This document shows positions 248 to 43,313 of a stretch of 43,391 nt of DNA, one piece after another. Made by a program: the position numbers and the translations under genes. The notes under the pieces were generated by a model that worked only from the letters and a program-made list of their open reading frames with translations, was not told where the DNA came from and did not search any database. The DNA is taken from the IMG/VR virus record IMGVR_UViG_3300048996_000109, positions 1 to 43,391 of that record; one strand, given 5' to 3'. Origin of the DNA: a virus. Within the stretch, counting starts at the first letter, position 1. The number at the start of each line of letters is the position of its first letter.

Positions 248-442
248 TCACCCGCCGTCTCGGCGGGCGTTCATGGGGGACGAGGCCGCGACGCGGGCCG
301 CCTGTAAGGCCCGACGGATCCGGCGGCCGTCATCACACGGCATCTCCAGGCGGCACCGGCCGCAGGTGGCTATGTGCGCCAACTGCACTTGGTAGGCCTT
401 CTCTACCTCGGGCACCAGCTCGGCGGGGGCGGCGGGCTTCAC
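248..442 (-). CDS. Small cysteine-motif protein, unknown function
   Basis: A 64-residue protein starting with GTG at 442, which overlaps the stop of the preceding gene as GTGA, so it is probably translationally coupled. Its middle carries a C-x2-C-x5-C pattern (CGRCRLEMPC) followed by a basic stretch (DGRRIRRAL), the look of a small metal-binding or redox module. A short hairpin (CCCGCCG/CGGCGGG, 251-267) lies in its last codons. It is the third gene of a block with the two related proteins upstream, so it probably works with them. No named family is recognised. Confidence 0.7.
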   Translation of the reverse strand: MKPAAPAELVPEVEKAYQVQLAHIATCGRCRLEMPCDDGRRIRRALQAARVAASSPMNARRDGG

Positions 443-927
443 TGGTCCAGCTCCCTGGCCAGCCGTTCGCGGCCGAGGGCGATCAGGGCGGCCACGTGCT
501 TGGGGGTGCACAGATCGCCAGTGAAGCGCGGTGGCACGACCCAGTACGTCCCGGGTGGCTCTCGGCGGTCGAGCCGGGGAACCCCGAGGTAGGTGCCTTG
601 CCCCAGGAGCGGGGCGACGTCCTCGTGCTTCCACGCCTGCCGGTCGCGCTGCTGCATCAAGGCGTAGTAGGTGGCGTTCAATGTTCGGTCGTCGTGGATG
701 ACCGGGCCGTGGAGTTGTTGCTCCAGGCGCTCGGCGACCTCTTCCGGTTCTGCGGTCCCCACGGCCGCGTGCACGAGCGCTTCGGGAAGGCGGGGAGCGA
801 CGAATGCTTGGCCGAGTGGCAGCAATGCCACGCCTCCCACCTCCCACTCGCGCCGGGCGAGCTCGGGCGCCGGCTGCGCGTTCGCTAGCCAGTCATCTAC
901 GGGAGACAGCTCTCTTGGGGTGGTCAT
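439..927 (-). CDS. Unknown protein, paralogue of the gene upstream
   Basis: 162 residues. The ATG at 927 overlaps the stop of the upstream gene (ATGA). The N-terminus (D-WLA then PELA and a W-E pair) and the C-terminus (YWVVPP then H-VAALIALG) line up loosely with the 152-residue protein encoded at 924-1382, suggesting an old tandem duplication. No signal peptide, membrane segment or catalytic motif is visible. It lies downstream of a DUF5753 regulator and a DUF6879 protein in the accessory segment. The family is known to me only as unnamed actinomycete proteins. Confidence 0.75.
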   Translation of the reverse strand: MTTPRELSPVDDWLANAQPAPELARREWEVGGVALLPLGQAFVAPRLPEALVHAAVGTAEPEEVAERLEQQLHGPVIHDDRTLNATYYALMQQRDRQAWKHEDVAPLLGQGTYLGVPRLDRREPPGTYWVVPPRFTGDLCTPKHVAALIALGRERLARELDQ

Positions 928-1382
928 CCGAAGGCCTCCGCGGGAAGTCGAGGGCCGCCGCCGGGCCCGAGGGCGGCGGCGAGGTACACGGGGTCATTGA
1001 GCTGGCCAGACCCGTCGGGGGCCTCCAACCAGACACGACTGCCAACGGCGAGTCGTGTAGAGGGGCAGTCCAGGGGCCAGCCGAGGGGCAGAACGAGGAC
1101 CTGCGGGACATCCAAGAGGTGTTCCGCGGCGCCAAGGGGCACGAGCCACCACGCGCGATCCATCCTGAAGTCCAGAAGGAGCGGCCCTAGTTCGTGCTCC
1201 GGCATCCGCTGCACGGCTCCCATGGCGGTCTGCAACTGCACCTCGGCGGCGAGCCACCGTGTGCAGTTGACCGGCACCAGAGTGCGCGTCTCCCATGCAG
1301 TGAGTGCGAGCTCTGGGCAGGCAGCACTCTCGGCGAGCCAGGCGTTCCCTGGGTCCGGCGTCGTGCGCTTGGATGCGGCCAT
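924..1382 (-). CDS. Unknown protein, first of a tandem pair, probably leaderless
   Basis: 152 residues beginning MAASKRTTPDPGNAWLAES. No ribosome site precedes the ATG at 1382. Instead a -10-like TACGGT (minus strand, 1390-1395) sits exactly seven bases upstream, the spacing expected of leaderless actinomycete transcripts. It shares a weak N- and C-terminal pattern with the next gene (D-WLA, PELA, W-E; late AAALG) and may be its paralogue. The upstream region holds two GATTGC boxes also found before the gene starting at 3045, so the whole block may be one regulon. Function unknown. Confidence 0.75.
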   Translation of the reverse strand: MAASKRTTPDPGNAWLAESAACPELALTAWETRTLVPVNCTRWLAAEVQLQTAMGAVQRMPEHELGPLLLDFRMDRAWWLVPLGAAEHLLDVPQVLVLPLGWPLDCPSTRLAVGSRVWLEAPDGSGQLNDPVYLAAALGPGGGPRLPAEAFG

Positions 1383-1389
1383 GGCCAGG

Positions 1390-1438
1390 ACCGTAGGGGT
1401 GCAGGCAGCGCAATTGTTGATCGATTGCGAGCGATTGC
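1390..1438 (-). promoter_or_regulatory. Leaderless-type promoter with GATTGC boxes
   Basis: On the minus strand TACGGT (1390-1395) lies seven bases before the ATG at 1382. On the plus strand GATTGC occurs at 1423-1428 and 1433-1438. The 10-mer GATTGCGAGC (1423-1432) recurs exactly at 3147-3156, upstream of the DUF6879 gene. It is a likely binding site for the DUF5753 regulator encoded between the two sites. No convincing -35 is seen. Confidence 0.5.
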
Positions 1439-1468
1439 ACCTAACGCGCCGTCAGTTGCGCGGGTTGC

Positions 1469-2308
1469 TCAGGCGAGATCTAAAGACGCTCGCGCGCGGC
1501 CGATGAGACGCCGCGCCATCGGCCCTCGCTCAGCTGACTCGGCGAGCCAGTCCCACGCCCGCTCGTACAGCCGGACGTCTTCCTCGGCCGTGAGCCACAG
1601 TTCCTCGGTGATGGTCTCGACGATCACCTGACGACGGTCGTAGATCCAGAACGCATGCGGCGCCGTACGCCGCAGCTGCGTCCCGAAAGGCAGGATCCCC
1701 AGCTCTACCCGCGGCATGCCCACCACCCCGTACAGCCGGTCGAGCTGCTCGGCCATCACCGCCTTGCGGCACGAGCGGTGATACAGCGCCGCCTCGCAAA
1801 CGAGGAACCGGAACTCCTTCCCCGGCTCATACAGAACTTCTTGCCGCCGCATCCGGTTTTCCACGGCCTGCTCGGTCGTGGCAGGGATCTCGCGGAACTC
1901 TGCGTTGGAATCGAAGATCACCGCCGCGTAGTCGCGCGTCTGGAAAAGACCAGGGACACGCGAGACTTCCAAGCCCCGTACGAGCGACGTCGCTTCAGTC
2001 TCCCGGATCGCGAGCTTCTGCCGCTCGGAGTGGCCGCCCGCGAGCTGCCTGCGCCACGACCGGTGCTTCAACTCCACACCCGCACGCAGGCCCTGCAACT
2101 CGGGCTCGACATCCGGCCTGCCCACAGCGGCGGTCCACGCCGTGACATCCTGCGCGCTCGCCGTCTGCCTGGCGTTCTGGATGCGGCTCACCTTCGAGGG
2201 CTGCCACCCCAACTTGGCCGCGAGGTCCTTGCCCTCCATACCCGACTCGGCGCGCAGCTCGCTTAGCCGCGCGCCGAGGATCTGCCGGGCCTCCTGGAAG
2301 TCACTCAC
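1469..2308 (-). CDS. XRE-family regulator with DUF5753 domain
   Basis: A 279-residue DNA-binding regulator. An N-terminal helix-turn-helix (about residues 8-60, with KDLAAKLGWQPSKVSRIQNARQ) is followed by the ~180-residue DUF5753 domain (ATSLVRGLEVSRVPGLFQT, then RRQEVLY, then FWIYD). DUF5753 proteins include WhiJ-like and Scr1-type antitoxin-like regulators of Streptomyces, usually next to DUF397 or similar small proteins. I chose GTG at 2308 because it overlaps the preceding stop as GTGA and gives the usual VSDFQEARQILGARL N-terminus. An ATG at 2362 in the same frame would add 18 residues. It is downstream of and coupled to the DUF6879 gene. Confidence 0.9.
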   Translation of the reverse strand: MSDFQEARQILGARLSELRAESGMEGKDLAAKLGWQPSKVSRIQNARQTASAQDVTAWTAAVGRPDVEPELQGLRAGVELKHRSWRRQLAGGHSERQKLAIRETEATSLVRGLEVSRVPGLFQTRDYAAVIFDSNAEFREIPATTEQAVENRMRRQEVLYEPGKEFRFLVCEAALYHRSCRKAVMAEQLDRLYGVVGMPRVELGILPFGTQLRRTAPHAFWIYDRRQVIVETITEELWLTAEEDVRLYERAWDWLAESAERGPMARRLIGRARASLDLA

Positions 2309-3045
2309 ATACTGGAACGTACCCGCCGCTGAAACTCCTGGGTACGGGTCGCGTGGTGCCATGCCGCGTCGCGGGCCTGGCAGGCCGCGAGAACGTCGGC
2401 AGGTTCCTCGGTGACGTACACGCCGAGGGTCACGTCTTCCTCGTCGAAGGCGAAGCGGACGAGAGTCTTGGAGTCGAAGAGCCAGAAGTCGAACTCAGGT
2501 AGGCGGAGTTCCTCCGCGCGAGTACGTGTGAGGTTGCGGATGTCCTCGCCCGCGGCGACGTTGCCCAGGCCGGTGGCGAGGAGGAACTCCTGCCCTTGCG
2601 TGGCCGGTTCGTCGACGAGCCGGACCCGCTCGAACCTCTTGCCCTGCTCTGTCTGGGTGCGGACATTCTCGCGCCACGCATTCTCGGGCTCGGCGGTGAT
2701 GTCCTCGCCCGCAGTCCAGCGCGCCCACTTGGGGCTGTTGCGGTCGGAGGCGTACCCGCGGCGGGTCTCCAGCCTCCACGCCGTGTGCCGGAACTCCTTG
2801 AACAGGTGTGCCACCGCGGAGAACGGGACAAGGTCCGGGGCCGCGGTGCGCGGCGCGTATCGGGTGAGTAGCGAGCGGGGCACTCGGACGAACGACTCGG
2901 ACGGCTTCACGTCGCGCAGCTGCACGAGGTGTTCGGGGTCGGTCTCGATGTCGCCCTGGACGAGGATCTCGTCCGTCTCGGGGATGTCGTACAGGGTCGG
3001 GCAGTCGCCTTCTTCGCTGGTGGTGCCGATGAACCGCAGGGCCAT
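2305..3045 (-). CDS. DUF6879-family protein with fused N-terminal small domain
   Basis: 246 residues starting at ATG 3045, with GGAGG 7 bases upstream. Residues 1 to about 64 (MALRFIGTTSEEGDCPTLYD, ending near LLTRY) resemble a small protein that in many streptomycetes is encoded separately before DUF6879. The rest (from about FSAVAHLFKEFRHTAWRLET to FDFWLFDSKTLVRF and ACQARDAAWHHA) is the DUF6879 domain. Here both halves are one uninterrupted reading frame. The gene precedes and overlaps the DUF5753 regulator, the usual partner arrangement. Molecular role unknown. Roles in toxin-antitoxin-like control or development have been suggested for this neighbourhood, but nothing in the sequence proves one. 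Confidence 0.85.
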   Translation of the reverse strand: MALRFIGTTSEEGDCPTLYDIPETDEILVQGDIETDPEHLVQLRDVKPSESFVRVPRSLLTRYAPRTAAPDLVPFSAVAHLFKEFRHTAWRLETRRGYASDRNSPKWARWTAGEDITAEPENAWRENVRTQTEQGKRFERVRLVDEPATQGQEFLLATGLGNVAAGEDIRNLTRTRAEELRLPEFDFWLFDSKTLVRFAFDEEDVTLGVYVTEEPADVLAACQARDAAWHHATRTQEFQRRVRSSM

Positions 3046-3087
3046 GTCGTCCTCCGTCAGCGGATGGTGGGCGTCCAGCATGCGCCG

Positions 3088-3160
3088 CGATTGCAGGTTG
3101 GGGCGGGGGCATTGCGCAGGATTGCAGATCGGGTGGAGTTCCGTTTGATTGCGAGCAATC
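3088..3160 (-). promoter_or_regulatory. Cluster of GCAATC/GATTGC boxes upstream of DUF6879 gene
   Basis: The inverted pair GATTGC-GA-GCAATC occupies 3147-3160. Further GCAAT-type words on the minus strand lie nearer the ATG at 3045, including the complements of GATTGC near 3090 and 3120. The 10-mer GATTGCGAGC is shared with 1423-1432. This is a plausible autoregulatory operator region for the DUF5753 regulator. No clear -35/-10 pair was identified. Confidence 0.5.
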
Positions 3161-3173
3161 GGGCATGACGAAA

Positions 3174-3207
3174 GGCCCTCCTCCCGCCCGAAGGCAGAAG
3201 GAGGGCC
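3174..3207 (-). terminator. Terminator of the late operon
   Basis: GGCCCTCCT (3174-3182) and AGGAGGGCC (3199-3207) form a perfect 9-bp stem directly after the stop of the collagen-like gene (3212). On the minus strand it is followed by TTTCG. It separates the lysis genes from the accessory regulator block. Confidence 0.85.
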
Positions 3208-40145: not shown

Positions 40146-40532
40146 ATGCACTCTTACCCTGTGGACAACCAGGAGCGCACCGAAGATCTAGCGCAGCTTC
40201 TCGCTCGTCTCAAAGCGGAGTACGACGTCAACGAGACCGAGATCGCTGCCCGCATCGGCACGGCCGTCTCCACCGTCAACTCCTGGGCGAACCGCACGCG
40301 AGGCGGCAAGCGCGGCCCGAATATCGAAAAGCTGCGCGCGCTGGCCCGCGAGTTCCCCAAGTTCACCGAGGCCGAGGTCTTCAGCGCTGCGGGCCGCCAG
40401 TCCCCCGGCCCGCTCAGCCCTGACGGCGAGGAGCGCATCCTCGCCCTGTACCGGGGACTGACCGAAGAGCAGCGGCGCATGAAGGAAGTCGAGATGCGCG
40501 CCCTGAATGAGATGAACCGTACGGGGCAGTAG
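40146..40532 (+). CDS. Phage repressor candidate (HTH protein)
   Basis: 128 residues. An N-terminal XRE/Cro-CI-type helix-turn-helix spans about residues 13-55 (LAQLLARLKAEYDVNETEIA, ARIGTAVSTVNSWANRTRGG). The second half is helical (GEERILALYRGLTEEQRRMK), without a protease or LexA-type domain. It lies opposite the Cro-like gene with three related operator sites between and near them, which makes it the best candidate for the immunity repressor. The next region, 40533-40717, holds no clear gene, only an AT-rich stretch with TTGGT/ACCAA inverted words near 40618-40636. Confidence 0.8.
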   Translation: MHSYPVDNQERTEDLAQLLARLKAEYDVNETEIAARIGTAVSTVNSWANRTRGGKRGPNIEKLRALAREFPKFTEAEVFSAAGRQSPGPLSPDGEERILALYRGLTEEQRRMKEVEMRALNEMNRTGQ

Positions 40533-40717: not shown

Positions 40718-40966
40718 ATGTGTGTGCGCATTAGTCTCACTGATCCCGAATCCATTCCGGCCTTCGATGCCGATGCCAAGGTGATCAGACTCCCCCGCCA
40801 CCTGGAGCCAGCACAGACGGTCACACTCGTGCGCGCCATCCTTCGCGAACTCGTGGTCGCGCAACCGGAGTTGGGTGCAGTCTGCTGGTGCGGGGCACCT
40901 GTCGACATGATGCCCCGCGTACCTCACCAGCGGAGGAGTGAGCAGGTGGTTAAGCATGGGGCGTAA
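40718..40966 (+). CDS. Small conserved unknown protein before the integrase
   Basis: 82 residues from the ATG at 40718 with a weak GGGGG upstream. MCVRISLTDPESIPAFDADA, then RHLEPAQTVTLVRAILRELV, then LGAVCWCGAPVDMM. C-W-C-G may be a metal-binding or redox pair. Similar small proteins precede genes in many streptomycete elements. The stop overlaps the integrase start (ATG 40956) by 11 bases, so the two are probably translated together. Confidence 0.72.
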   Translation: MCVRISLTDPESIPAFDADAKVIRLPRHLEPAQTVTLVRAILRELVVAQPELGAVCWCGAPVDMMPRVPHQRRSEQVVKHGA

Positions 40967-42239
40967 GGCCTCCGAGAACCCACGCCAGATCAGGGCCAAG
41001 ACGTGCGGTTGCCACAAATGCATGGCCAAGTACCCGCCGGACGTACACGGCGAGCGGACCCGACGGCGCGACTGCATCGGCGCGTGGCAGGCCCGCTACC
41101 GCGACCCGACCGGGAAGCAGAAGGCGAAGAACTTTCCGATCGCCGACGGCGGCAAGAAGAAGGCCGAGGCGTACCTCGACGACATCCGCACCAAGGTCCG
41201 TAAGAGGACATACGGCGACCCCAAGCGCGGCGAGATCACCATGGGCCAGTGGTGGGACCTGTGGTGGGAGGCGCAGCCGGACCGCGCCGTCACCACGACC
41301 AACCGGAAACTGTCCAACTGGAACGCCCACCTCGAACCGAAGTGGGGCGAGTGGCGGCTGTGCGACCTGGAGTACATCGAGCTACAGGCGTGGATCACAC
41401 GGGAGGTGAAGGGCTACCACACCCGCAAGAAGGTCCACGAGGTGCTCAACTCCATGCTCCGCGCAGCAGTCAAGGATGGCCGGCGGATCCCGTTCAACCC
41501 GGCCGCCGACCTCGACATCGGCGAGCCGACGGTGAAGCACCCCGACGACGTCCGACCCCCGACGCGCGCTCAGGTGAAGCTGATCCTCCAGCACCTGCCG
41601 ACCTACTACCGGCCGTTGGTCGTGTTCCTCGAGCACACGGGAATGCGGTGGGGCGAAGCCACAGGCTTGCGGTGGGAGAACGTCGACCTGGAGGCGCACC
41701 ACCTCAAGGTGAAGGAAGTGCTCAGTGAGGACCACGGGCGCCTGTTCCGGAAGGACGCGCCCAAGTCCGTCGCTGGCTTCCGCACGGTGCCGGTCACGCC
41801 TGAGGCGGCCACCGCGGTGCAAGCAATGGTGGACAGGTGGCGGCCATCGAAGACAGTGACCCCCATCGGGGACGATCCGTACCAACTACACCCGGGCGAG
41901 CTCGTGTTCCGCGGCCCGCAGGGTGGCGTGCTCAGCCGGCACAACTTCCGCCGGGTGTGGGTGCCCGGGATCCAGGACGCGGGGATTGCCCGCCAGGTGA
42001 AGAACCGGGAGACGGGTCGGATGGAGTGGTGGCCGCGGGTCCACGATTTGCGGCACGTCTTCGCCACGTGGCTGAAGGAGCTGGGGATCGACGAGAAAGA
42101 CACGCAGACGGTGATGGGCCACGAGCGCGGGTCCAAGGTCACATGGATCTACCAGCACTCCCCCGAGGATGTGGCGGCCCAGGTGCGCGCTCGCATGGCG
42201 CCCGACGCCGAGGCTGTTCGAACATTGCGGGCTGTATGA
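40956..42239 (+). CDS. int: Tyrosine integrase
   Basis: 427 residues. N-terminal arm-binding region (GAWQARYRDPTGKQKAKNF) with a C-G-C-x2-C pattern near residue 17-22, a core-binding SAM-like domain (about 95-180, GQWWDLWWEAQPDR onward) and the catalytic domain. Catalytic residues: R231 (TGMRWGE), K270, H363-x-x-R366 (HDLRH), H389 (GHE) and the nucleophile Y399 (TWIYQH). I use ATG 40956; GTG at 40938 abuts its own ribosome site. The gene ends 160 bases before the tRNA-Arg-like core, placing int next to its own attachment site. Confidence 0.95.
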   Translation: MGRKASENPRQIRAKTCGCHKCMAKYPPDVHGERTRRRDCIGAWQARYRDPTGKQKAKNFPIADGGKKKAEAYLDDIRTKVRKRTYGDPKRGEITMGQWWDLWWEAQPDRAVTTTNRKLSNWNAHLEPKWGEWRLCDLEYIELQAWITREVKGYHTRKKVHEVLNSMLRAAVKDGRRIPFNPAADLDIGEPTVKHPDDVRPPTRAQVKLILQHLPTYYRPLVVFLEHTGMRWGEATGLRWENVDLEAHHLKVKEVLSEDHGRLFRKDAPKSVAGFRTVPVTPEAATAVQAMVDRWRPSKTVTPIGDDPYQLHPGELVFRGPQGGVLSRHNFRRVWVPGIQDAGIARQVKNRETGRMEWWPRVHDLRHVFATWLKELGIDEKDTQTVMGHERGSKVTWIYQHSPEDVAAQVRARMAPDAEAVRTLRAV

Positions 42240-42398: not shown

Positions 42399-42440
42399 CT
42401 CCTAAAGCGGGTGTCGCAGGTTCGAATCCTGCCGGGGGCA
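42399..42440 (+). other. attP core: 3' part of tRNA-Arg (CCT anticodon)
   Basis: The sequence reads as a tRNA from the anticodon loop CTCCTAA (42399-42405, anticodon CCT) through the 3' anticodon arm, variable loop, T-stem GCAGG/CCTGC (416-420 and 428-432 of this line), T-loop TTCGAAT, acceptor strand CGGGGGC (433-439) and discriminator A. The 5' half is missing: the bases before (ACTTT) do not pair with AGCGG. It is thus not a tRNA gene but the crossover identity block shared with a host tRNA-Arg. Confidence 0.85.
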
Positions 42441-43079: not shown

Positions 43080-43313
43080 GTGCCGCGCTCCACTGAATCG
43101 CCAGACTGGGTCCTCGTCCGGCGACGGACCATCGGCGCGAAGATCCGCTCCGCCCGCGAGTACGCCAACCTCACTCAGCAGGCCGTCGCCCTGGCCATTC
43201 CTATGGACAGGGCCACCTACGCGCGCATCGAGCAAGGCCACGCATCGCCCCTCCTCGACACCCTCATCCGCATCGCCGACGCCCTCGACGTACCGCTCCG
43301 CGACCTCGTCTGA
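43080..43313 (+). CDS. Small XRE-family regulator
   Basis: 77 residues from GTG 43080. A compact Cro/CI-type helix-turn-helix fills almost the whole protein (TIGAKIRSAREYANLTQQAV, MDRATYARIEQGHASPLLDT, LIRIADALDVPLRDLV). No ribosome site precedes the GTG; a three-codon frame ATG-AGC-CAG-TGA stands at 43058-43069 just before it. The promoter carries an inverted repeat, so it is probably self-controlled. A second regulator next to the attachment site could control the accessory block or act in immunity. Confidence 0.85.
   Translation: MPRSTESPDWVLVRRRTIGAKIRSAREYANLTQQAVALAIPMDRATYARIEQGHASPLLDTLIRIADALDVPLRDLV

Follow-up and report, generated by a model that had tools for sequence, protein, structure and literature searches.

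Among the transcription regulators of Streptomyces, those with a DUF5753 domain, together with their partner proteins, form one of the large paralogous sets. One of them, WhiJ9 of S. venezuelae (iosA-whiJ9-bldB9 locus), recognises CGXXCTCAAC direct repeats and is needed to activate the leaderless gene iosA; iosA rises about 750-fold when the DUF397 protein BldB is lost, and IosA, the output of the locus, blocks sporulation (PMC10294661). WhiJ9 is the one DUF5753 regulator for which we found a published operator, and its locus is the closest characterised relative of the module described here, which lies at the left end of a viral DNA of 43,391 nucleotides (IMG/VR record IMGVR_UViG_3300048996_000109, a linear record; hereafter, the window). 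In this work, we argue that the module is probably a self-contained local activator switch of the WhiJ9/BldB type, carried as lysogenic cargo, in which a DUF6879 protein takes the partner role.

All five open reading frames (ORFs) of the module were confirmed; they occupy positions 248-3045 on the minus strand and are flanked by two hairpins. In the direction of transcription, they encode a fusion of an N-terminal partner domain of about 66 residues with DUF6879 (2305-3045), a regulator of 279 residues with an XRE-type helix-turn-helix (HTH) and a DUF5753 domain (1469-2308), the output proteins 1 (tand1, 924-1382) and 2 (tand2, 439-927), and a CxxC..C protein of 64 residues (248-442), relatives of which occur at three other loci. 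The genes overlap by GTGA, ATGA and GTGA, the exception being a gap of 86 bp between the regulator gene and tand1. An earlier note, made from the window alone, had described a DUF6879 protein fused to its usually separate small partner, a DUF5753 regulator coupled to it by GTGA, a tandem pair of related proteins and a small Cys protein, and all of these descriptions held up.

Predicted operators and promoters of the module

The control DNA of the module is an addition to the earlier note, which had missed it. Repeated GCAAT words were first noticed from a side-by-side reading of intergenic regions; their core is a direct repeat, GCAATN5GCAAT, whose half-sites are one helical turn apart and which is present in both intergenic regions. 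The window contains two such pairs, at 3111-3125 and 1424-1438, against a chance expectation of 0.025 pairs. The first (GCAATCCTGCGCAAT, minus strand) is the predicted operator of promoter P1, upstream of the fusion gene. A -10-like box, CATGCT, is located 28 bp downstream of it (3077-3082, minus strand), and a palindrome, GATTGCGAGCAATC, stands at 3147-3160. The second (GCAATCGCTCGCAAT, minus strand) is the predicted operator of promoter P2, upstream of tand1; here too a -10-like box, TACGGT, follows after 28 bp (1390-1395, minus strand), and the ATG of tand1, a predicted leaderless start, comes 7 nt further. Directly after the regulator stop there is, in addition, a degenerate upstream repeat, GCAACCCGCGCAAC (1455-1468, minus strand). 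Note that the informative form of the pattern was the direct repeat; scanning the window by itself for exact palindromes was uninformative (4 matches vs 2.8 expected).

This arrangement is conserved. At P2, the spacing between the repeat and a TANNNT box is exactly 28 bp in 17 of 17 distinct loci with a pair, and in tand1-type loci the ATG follows the box after 6-7 nt. One of the 17, locus L006, carries two full GCAAT repeats between regulator and tand1, the extra one upstream of the core repeat, and the spacing there applies to the second of the two pairs. At P1, relatives keep 27-28 bp between the repeat and a CATNCT box, and the palindrome, with the core TTGCGCGCAA, is usually found 22 bp further up. 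For the close clade (35 loci, some of them fetched twice), a density count gave 13.1 GCAAT/ATTGC words per kb upstream of DUF6879 and 21.0 in the region after the regulator gene, against 0.37 in ORFs; the corresponding values at the same positions of the distant clade modules are 1.2 and 1.0.

The pattern was then put to the test in further genomes, on the scale of the genus. A composite of 49 bp (the repeat, 28 bp and TANNNT) had 39 matches in 121 Streptomyces genomes, whereas the reversed pattern, used as a control, had none. Thirty of the matching loci were fetched, three of which were already known; 25 of the 30 matches lie directly after a DUF5753 gene, which in 23 cases also has a DUF6879 gene before it. 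With a strict 16-mer operator pattern, 21 matches were obtained in eight records, compared with 2 for the reversed pattern, and about 15 of the 21 adjoin DUF5753 genes. The operator is therefore largely dedicated to this module type, which speaks against a broad regulon, and the probable target of the regulator is its own locus.

Proteins of the module and their conservation

The regulator matches HTH_31 (PF13560, 3.9e-10) and DUF5753 (PF19054, 7.4e-34), both above cut-off, which supports its membership of the WhiJ-like XRE-DUF5753 group, in line with the WhiJ-like control that the earlier note had linked to DUF5753 neighbourhoods. Its start is likely to be the GTG at 2308-2306, which overlaps the TGA of the fusion gene (2307-2305), rather than the earliest ATG of the ORF (2362); of 53 distinct DUF6879-regulator junctions, 47 likewise have a start codon that overlaps the stop. 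In the recognition helix, regulators with GCAAT sites mostly have SKVSR, and those without such sites mostly have SKVSK or other residues, a suggestive but uncontrolled correlation.

The fusion protein has 246 residues, of which the C-terminal 160 match DUF6879 (PF21806, 3.6e-49; 166.9 bits against a gathering cut-off of 23.9), a family that went unmentioned in our literature search. Its N-terminal part of about 66 residues is encoded as a gene of its own at seven related loci and in phage Kromp; the fusion is thus genuine, but it is the ordinary form within the close clade. In the AlphaFold2 (AF2) model of the fusion (pLDDT 86), the N-terminal domain is small and beta-rich at low confidence (pLDDT 58-75), and residues 67-245 match many entries of the phospholipase D (PLD) fold (VIA Z 11.9-10.5), among them SauUSI (11.9), Nuc (11.3), NucT (11.0), TrmBL2 (10.5) and FAM83B (10.5), with a best Foldseek E of 2.7e-4. 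The predicted fold of DUF6879 is thus PLD-like. Since the catalytic HKD motif (HxKx4D) is missing from all 56 DUF6879 sequences tested, catalysis of the usual PLD type is improbable; by comparison with TrmB or FAM83, the protein would more plausibly serve in binding or sensing.

The two output proteins are distant paralogues (BLASTP 8e-4) that both match phrog_38395, tand1 at 2e-34 and tand2 at 7e-5. An assignment to the AEP/Prim-Pol fold was considered but set aside, the structural matches being weak: the best Z of the tand1 model, 5.0 to CAPP Prim-Pol, is under the stated noise level, and no Foldseek E was below 0.08. With a weak model (pLDDT 70), we claim no fold for tand1. Pfam gave no match for chromosomal relatives of the tandem proteins or for a neighbouring protein at locus L170, and a PDB sequence search with the module proteins returned nothing useful.

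Behind the same promoter, other loci carry tand1 genes, genes for small WCHWH...CAPC proteins (three loci) or chromosomal genes for peptide methyltransferases; one promoter design is therefore common to differing cargo. Methyltransferase relatives are located downstream of or near the module at ten loci. The four tested matched PF01135 above cut-off, and their best NCBIfam model, under its cut-off, was TIGR04188, 'ATP-grasp peptide maturase system methyltransferase'. Graspetide groups are reported to co-occur with DUF397/DUF5753 pairs and PIMT (PMC13097080). At locus L159 (1510-3277), a tand2-like gene stands just before genes for a GRASP_targ precursor and an ATP-grasp maturase of ribosomally synthesised and post-translationally modified peptides, both above NCBIfam cut-offs.

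The gene set is conserved elsewhere as a unit. Viral contigs were scanned with three queries (the fusion, the regulator and tand1), which yielded 16 loci on 15 IMG/VR contigs. In 12 of the 15, DUF6879, fused or split, is followed by the regulator and then by tand1; two others have no tand1, and the last has a tand2-type output and a contig end inside the module. A genome scan yielded 24 loci, nearly all in Streptomycetaceae, in nearly all of which the regulator adjoins DUF6879, and the same pairing is present in almost all of 30 loci found through the family. Each of nine genomes searched contains 3-11 copies of DUF6879, almost all of them followed by a DUF5753 gene, and relatives of the fusion occur in 89 plasmid records. 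In a search of 41 genomes, the seven best tand1-type loci fetched all stand behind a DUF6879-DUF5753 pair, whereas more distant relatives do not. Four chromosomal relatives have internal stops or frame changes in the DUF6879 or regulator genes and may be decaying modules or sequencing errors.

A proposed activator switch and its alternatives

The mechanism that we propose has four steps. First, the DUF6879 fusion and the regulator are made together, as their genes adjoin and share nucleotides between the stop codon of the one and the start codon of the other. The regulator very probably binds the GCAATN5GCAAT repeats at P1, in front of its own operon, and at P2, in front of the output operon. 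It would activate both itself and the leaderless tand1-tand2-Cys transcript; an activator role is suggested by the position of the repeats, which end 27-28 bp ahead of the -10 boxes and so fall at about -41 to -55, and by the lack of a -35 match above chance (mean best 2.28 vs 2.14 in shuffled sequences at P2, and 2.00 vs 2.08 at P1). Finally, the fusion may bind the regulator and keep it inactive until some signal arrives, as DUF397 (BldB-like) proteins are thought to do for WhiJ proteins. More tentatively, DUF6879 may be a catalytically dead, PLD-like sensor or anti-activator partner of a distinct DUF5753 clade. The module would then be a mobile, cargo-agnostic switch whose single operator-promoter design is common to phages, plasmids and chromosomal peptide-methyltransferase (graspetide-type) clusters, and through which the phage would express tand proteins that alter the host in lysogeny.

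The regulator might instead repress both promoters, with DUF6879 as a co-repressor or inducer-sensing part; lysogens would then keep the output silent until induction. XRE regulators commonly repress themselves, WhiJ9 among them (PMC10294661), and in several P2 promoters, including that of the window (1410-1414), an extra GCAAT half-site lies between the repeat and the -10 box. We nevertheless give repression a minor share of the probability, as the core repeat always lies upstream of the -35 region, at a fixed spacing to the -10 box and with no -35 above chance, which is the layout of an activator site.

Several points weigh against the activator switch, or against parts of it. Streptomyces promoters are often without a clear -35, so that a missing -35 is no proof of an activator. 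The operator is not general to DUF5753 regulators, since modules whose regulator is less than about 45% identical are mostly without GCAAT sites. Five of the 30 fetched pattern loci have no DUF5753 gene; one, L145, is a contig end, and the other four (L125, L127, L129 and L139) are copies of one conserved sequence, the promoter-like GCAATTTCCGGCAATCCCCTGTCA, which has the same 28-bp spacing. As for the partner, none of the five module proteins has a Pfam match to DUF397, and an identification of the N-terminal domain of the fusion as DUF397, proposed from likeness by eye and strand order, gained no significant support from profile comparison (hhalign E 0.15, with 9 of 100 column shuffles as good or better) and was set aside. 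Finally, WhiJ9 has a roughly two-fold repressive effect on its own gene (PMC10294661).

The antitoxin-like control raised in the earlier note was not borne out. As a type II toxin-antitoxin or abortive-infection module, the locus would have DUF6879 or a tandem protein as toxin and the DUF5753 regulator as antitoxin, in keeping with an overlapping gene pair that includes an HTH gene on phages and plasmids, and XRE/DUF397 pairs were predicted as toxin-antitoxin systems (Makarova 2009, as cited in PMC10364602). By analogy with the S. coelicolor XRE/DUF397 pairs, none of which behaved in this way among 14 tested (PMC10364602), we consider this unlikely; moreover, DUF6879 is without the PLD catalytic motif, and a scan of the window with the PADLOC defence models produced weak HTH matches and no others. 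For the exclusion of other phages, also raised in the earlier note, the scan likewise gave nothing beyond these weak matches.

About as improbable is that the regulator is no cargo but serves this phage family as its repressor for immunity or for the choice between lysis and lysogeny. It is an HTH protein that would lie near the integrase and the attachment site (att) once the genome is circularised, but the phage has a repressor candidate of its own in another, repressor-like HTH gene beside the integrase (40146-40532), the GCAAT pairs of the window are limited to the module's own two promoters, and plasmids, as well as chromosomes that lack this phage, carry the same module. Least probable of all is direct, WhiJ-like control of host developmental genes in trans, which the DUF5753 kinship and the effects of WhiJ and Scr1 loci on development and antibiotics (PMC6262351, PMC10364602) might suggest but which the strict operator matches do not indicate, about 14 of the 20 in seven host genomes (2 in the control) being at DUF5753 loci. 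Any host effect would run through the output proteins, which could still touch development, as IosA does in its own locus.

Position in the phage and comparison with known systems

In the record as given, the attachment region is at the opposite end from the module: the integrase (40938-42239, plus strand; phrog_1, 1.7e-62), a tRNA 3'-end-like sequence that is the probable attachment core (GGTTCGAATCC, about 42400-42440, plus strand; ARAGORN found no complete tRNA there) and a small HTH gene (43080-43313, plus strand) are all at the right end. In relatives, a homologue of this HTH gene, encoded on the opposite strand, follows the module at about 0.5-1.1 kb from tand1, and five contigs have the order module, small HTH gene, integrase, the last being 54% identical to that of the window. 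Because relatives keep this order, the record is most simply read as a circular genome opened between the module and the HTH/integrase end; with the ends joined at the junction suggested by the relatives' gene order, the module would be about 1.2 kb from att. The two ends have no stretch of at least 14 nt in common and so are not direct att copies. The statement in the earlier note that the locus lies beside the attachment site is therefore right if the record is circularly permuted and wrong for the record as it stands. Its view of a separate control module in the position of lysogenic cargo is supported by the conserved gene set and by the modules of phages Kromp (with a split DUF6879) and Picard, both located between endolysin and integrase genes. 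In Picard, a cultivated S. venezuelae phage, HATPase_c_2, DUF5753 and DUF397 genes, a cluster of the WhiJ/BldB/AbaA type, stand between the endolysin and a serine integrase (L186, 2789-4564).

Of the two terminator-like hairpins, one (188-238, inverted repeat I6) is 3' of the small Cys gene, and the other (3174-3207, inverted repeat I24) separates the module from the lysis region. The adjoining gene there (3212 to about 3845, minus strand) encodes a collagen-like protein of Gly-X-Y repeats, which has a transmembrane-like segment at its N-terminus and Cys in its C-terminus and relatives of which lie upstream of the module at three other loci. Our search found no phages nearly identical to the window, and P0003 had no match among cultivated phages.

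Several known systems resemble parts of the module. The PLD-like fold is also that of TrmB/TrmBL2, where TrmB uses it as the effector domain of a transcription regulator, and of FAM83 (DUF1669); the resemblance is one of predicted fold, and DUF6879 is encoded apart from its HTH protein. The XRE/DUF397 pairs (such as Scr1/Scr2 and WhiJ/SCO4542) likewise combine an HTH-DUF5753 regulator with an adjacent small partner, but the window has DUF6879 where they have DUF397, and its regulator scores 89.4 of 350 bits against the SCO1979-family model (NF058600), far under the curated cut-off. In Streptomyces phage Kromp, gp29-gp31 are a small split partner, DUF6879 and a DUF5753 regulator, again between the lysis genes and an HTH/integrase block; they differ in being unfused and 32-35% identical, with no GCAAT pairs and no tandem output genes detected. 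Much closer is a plasmid of Streptomyces sp. KN37 (NZ_CP139045.1), which, although a mobilizable linear plasmid record and not a phage, has the fused DUF6879 (80% identity), the regulator (89%), tand1 (66%) and tand2 (61%) together, with both GCAAT pairs and the 28-bp spacing at P2.

With the iosA-whiJ9-bldB9 locus (PMC10294661), the module has in common an XRE-DUF5753 regulator, a small leaderless output gene, direct repeats of 10-nt units in the promoter region (CGXXCTCAAC there, CGCAATCNNN here) and a partner that is encoded alongside and does not bind DNA, a role that in the module is conjectural. It differs in that the partner is a DUF6879 fusion rather than a detectable DUF397 protein and overlaps the regulator in one operon, that the repeats are at about -48 instead of 113 bp upstream, and that tand1 is acidic, with an isoelectric point (pI) of 4.8 against 10.3 for IosA, the comparison being one of pI and not of the IosA sequence. 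A conserved operator with a fixed spacing predicts which genes are controlled in each module and makes binding, the sign of regulation and the function of the partner testable; it also ties the cargo of phages and plasmids to host circuits of a kind in which an inhibitor of sporulation is known.

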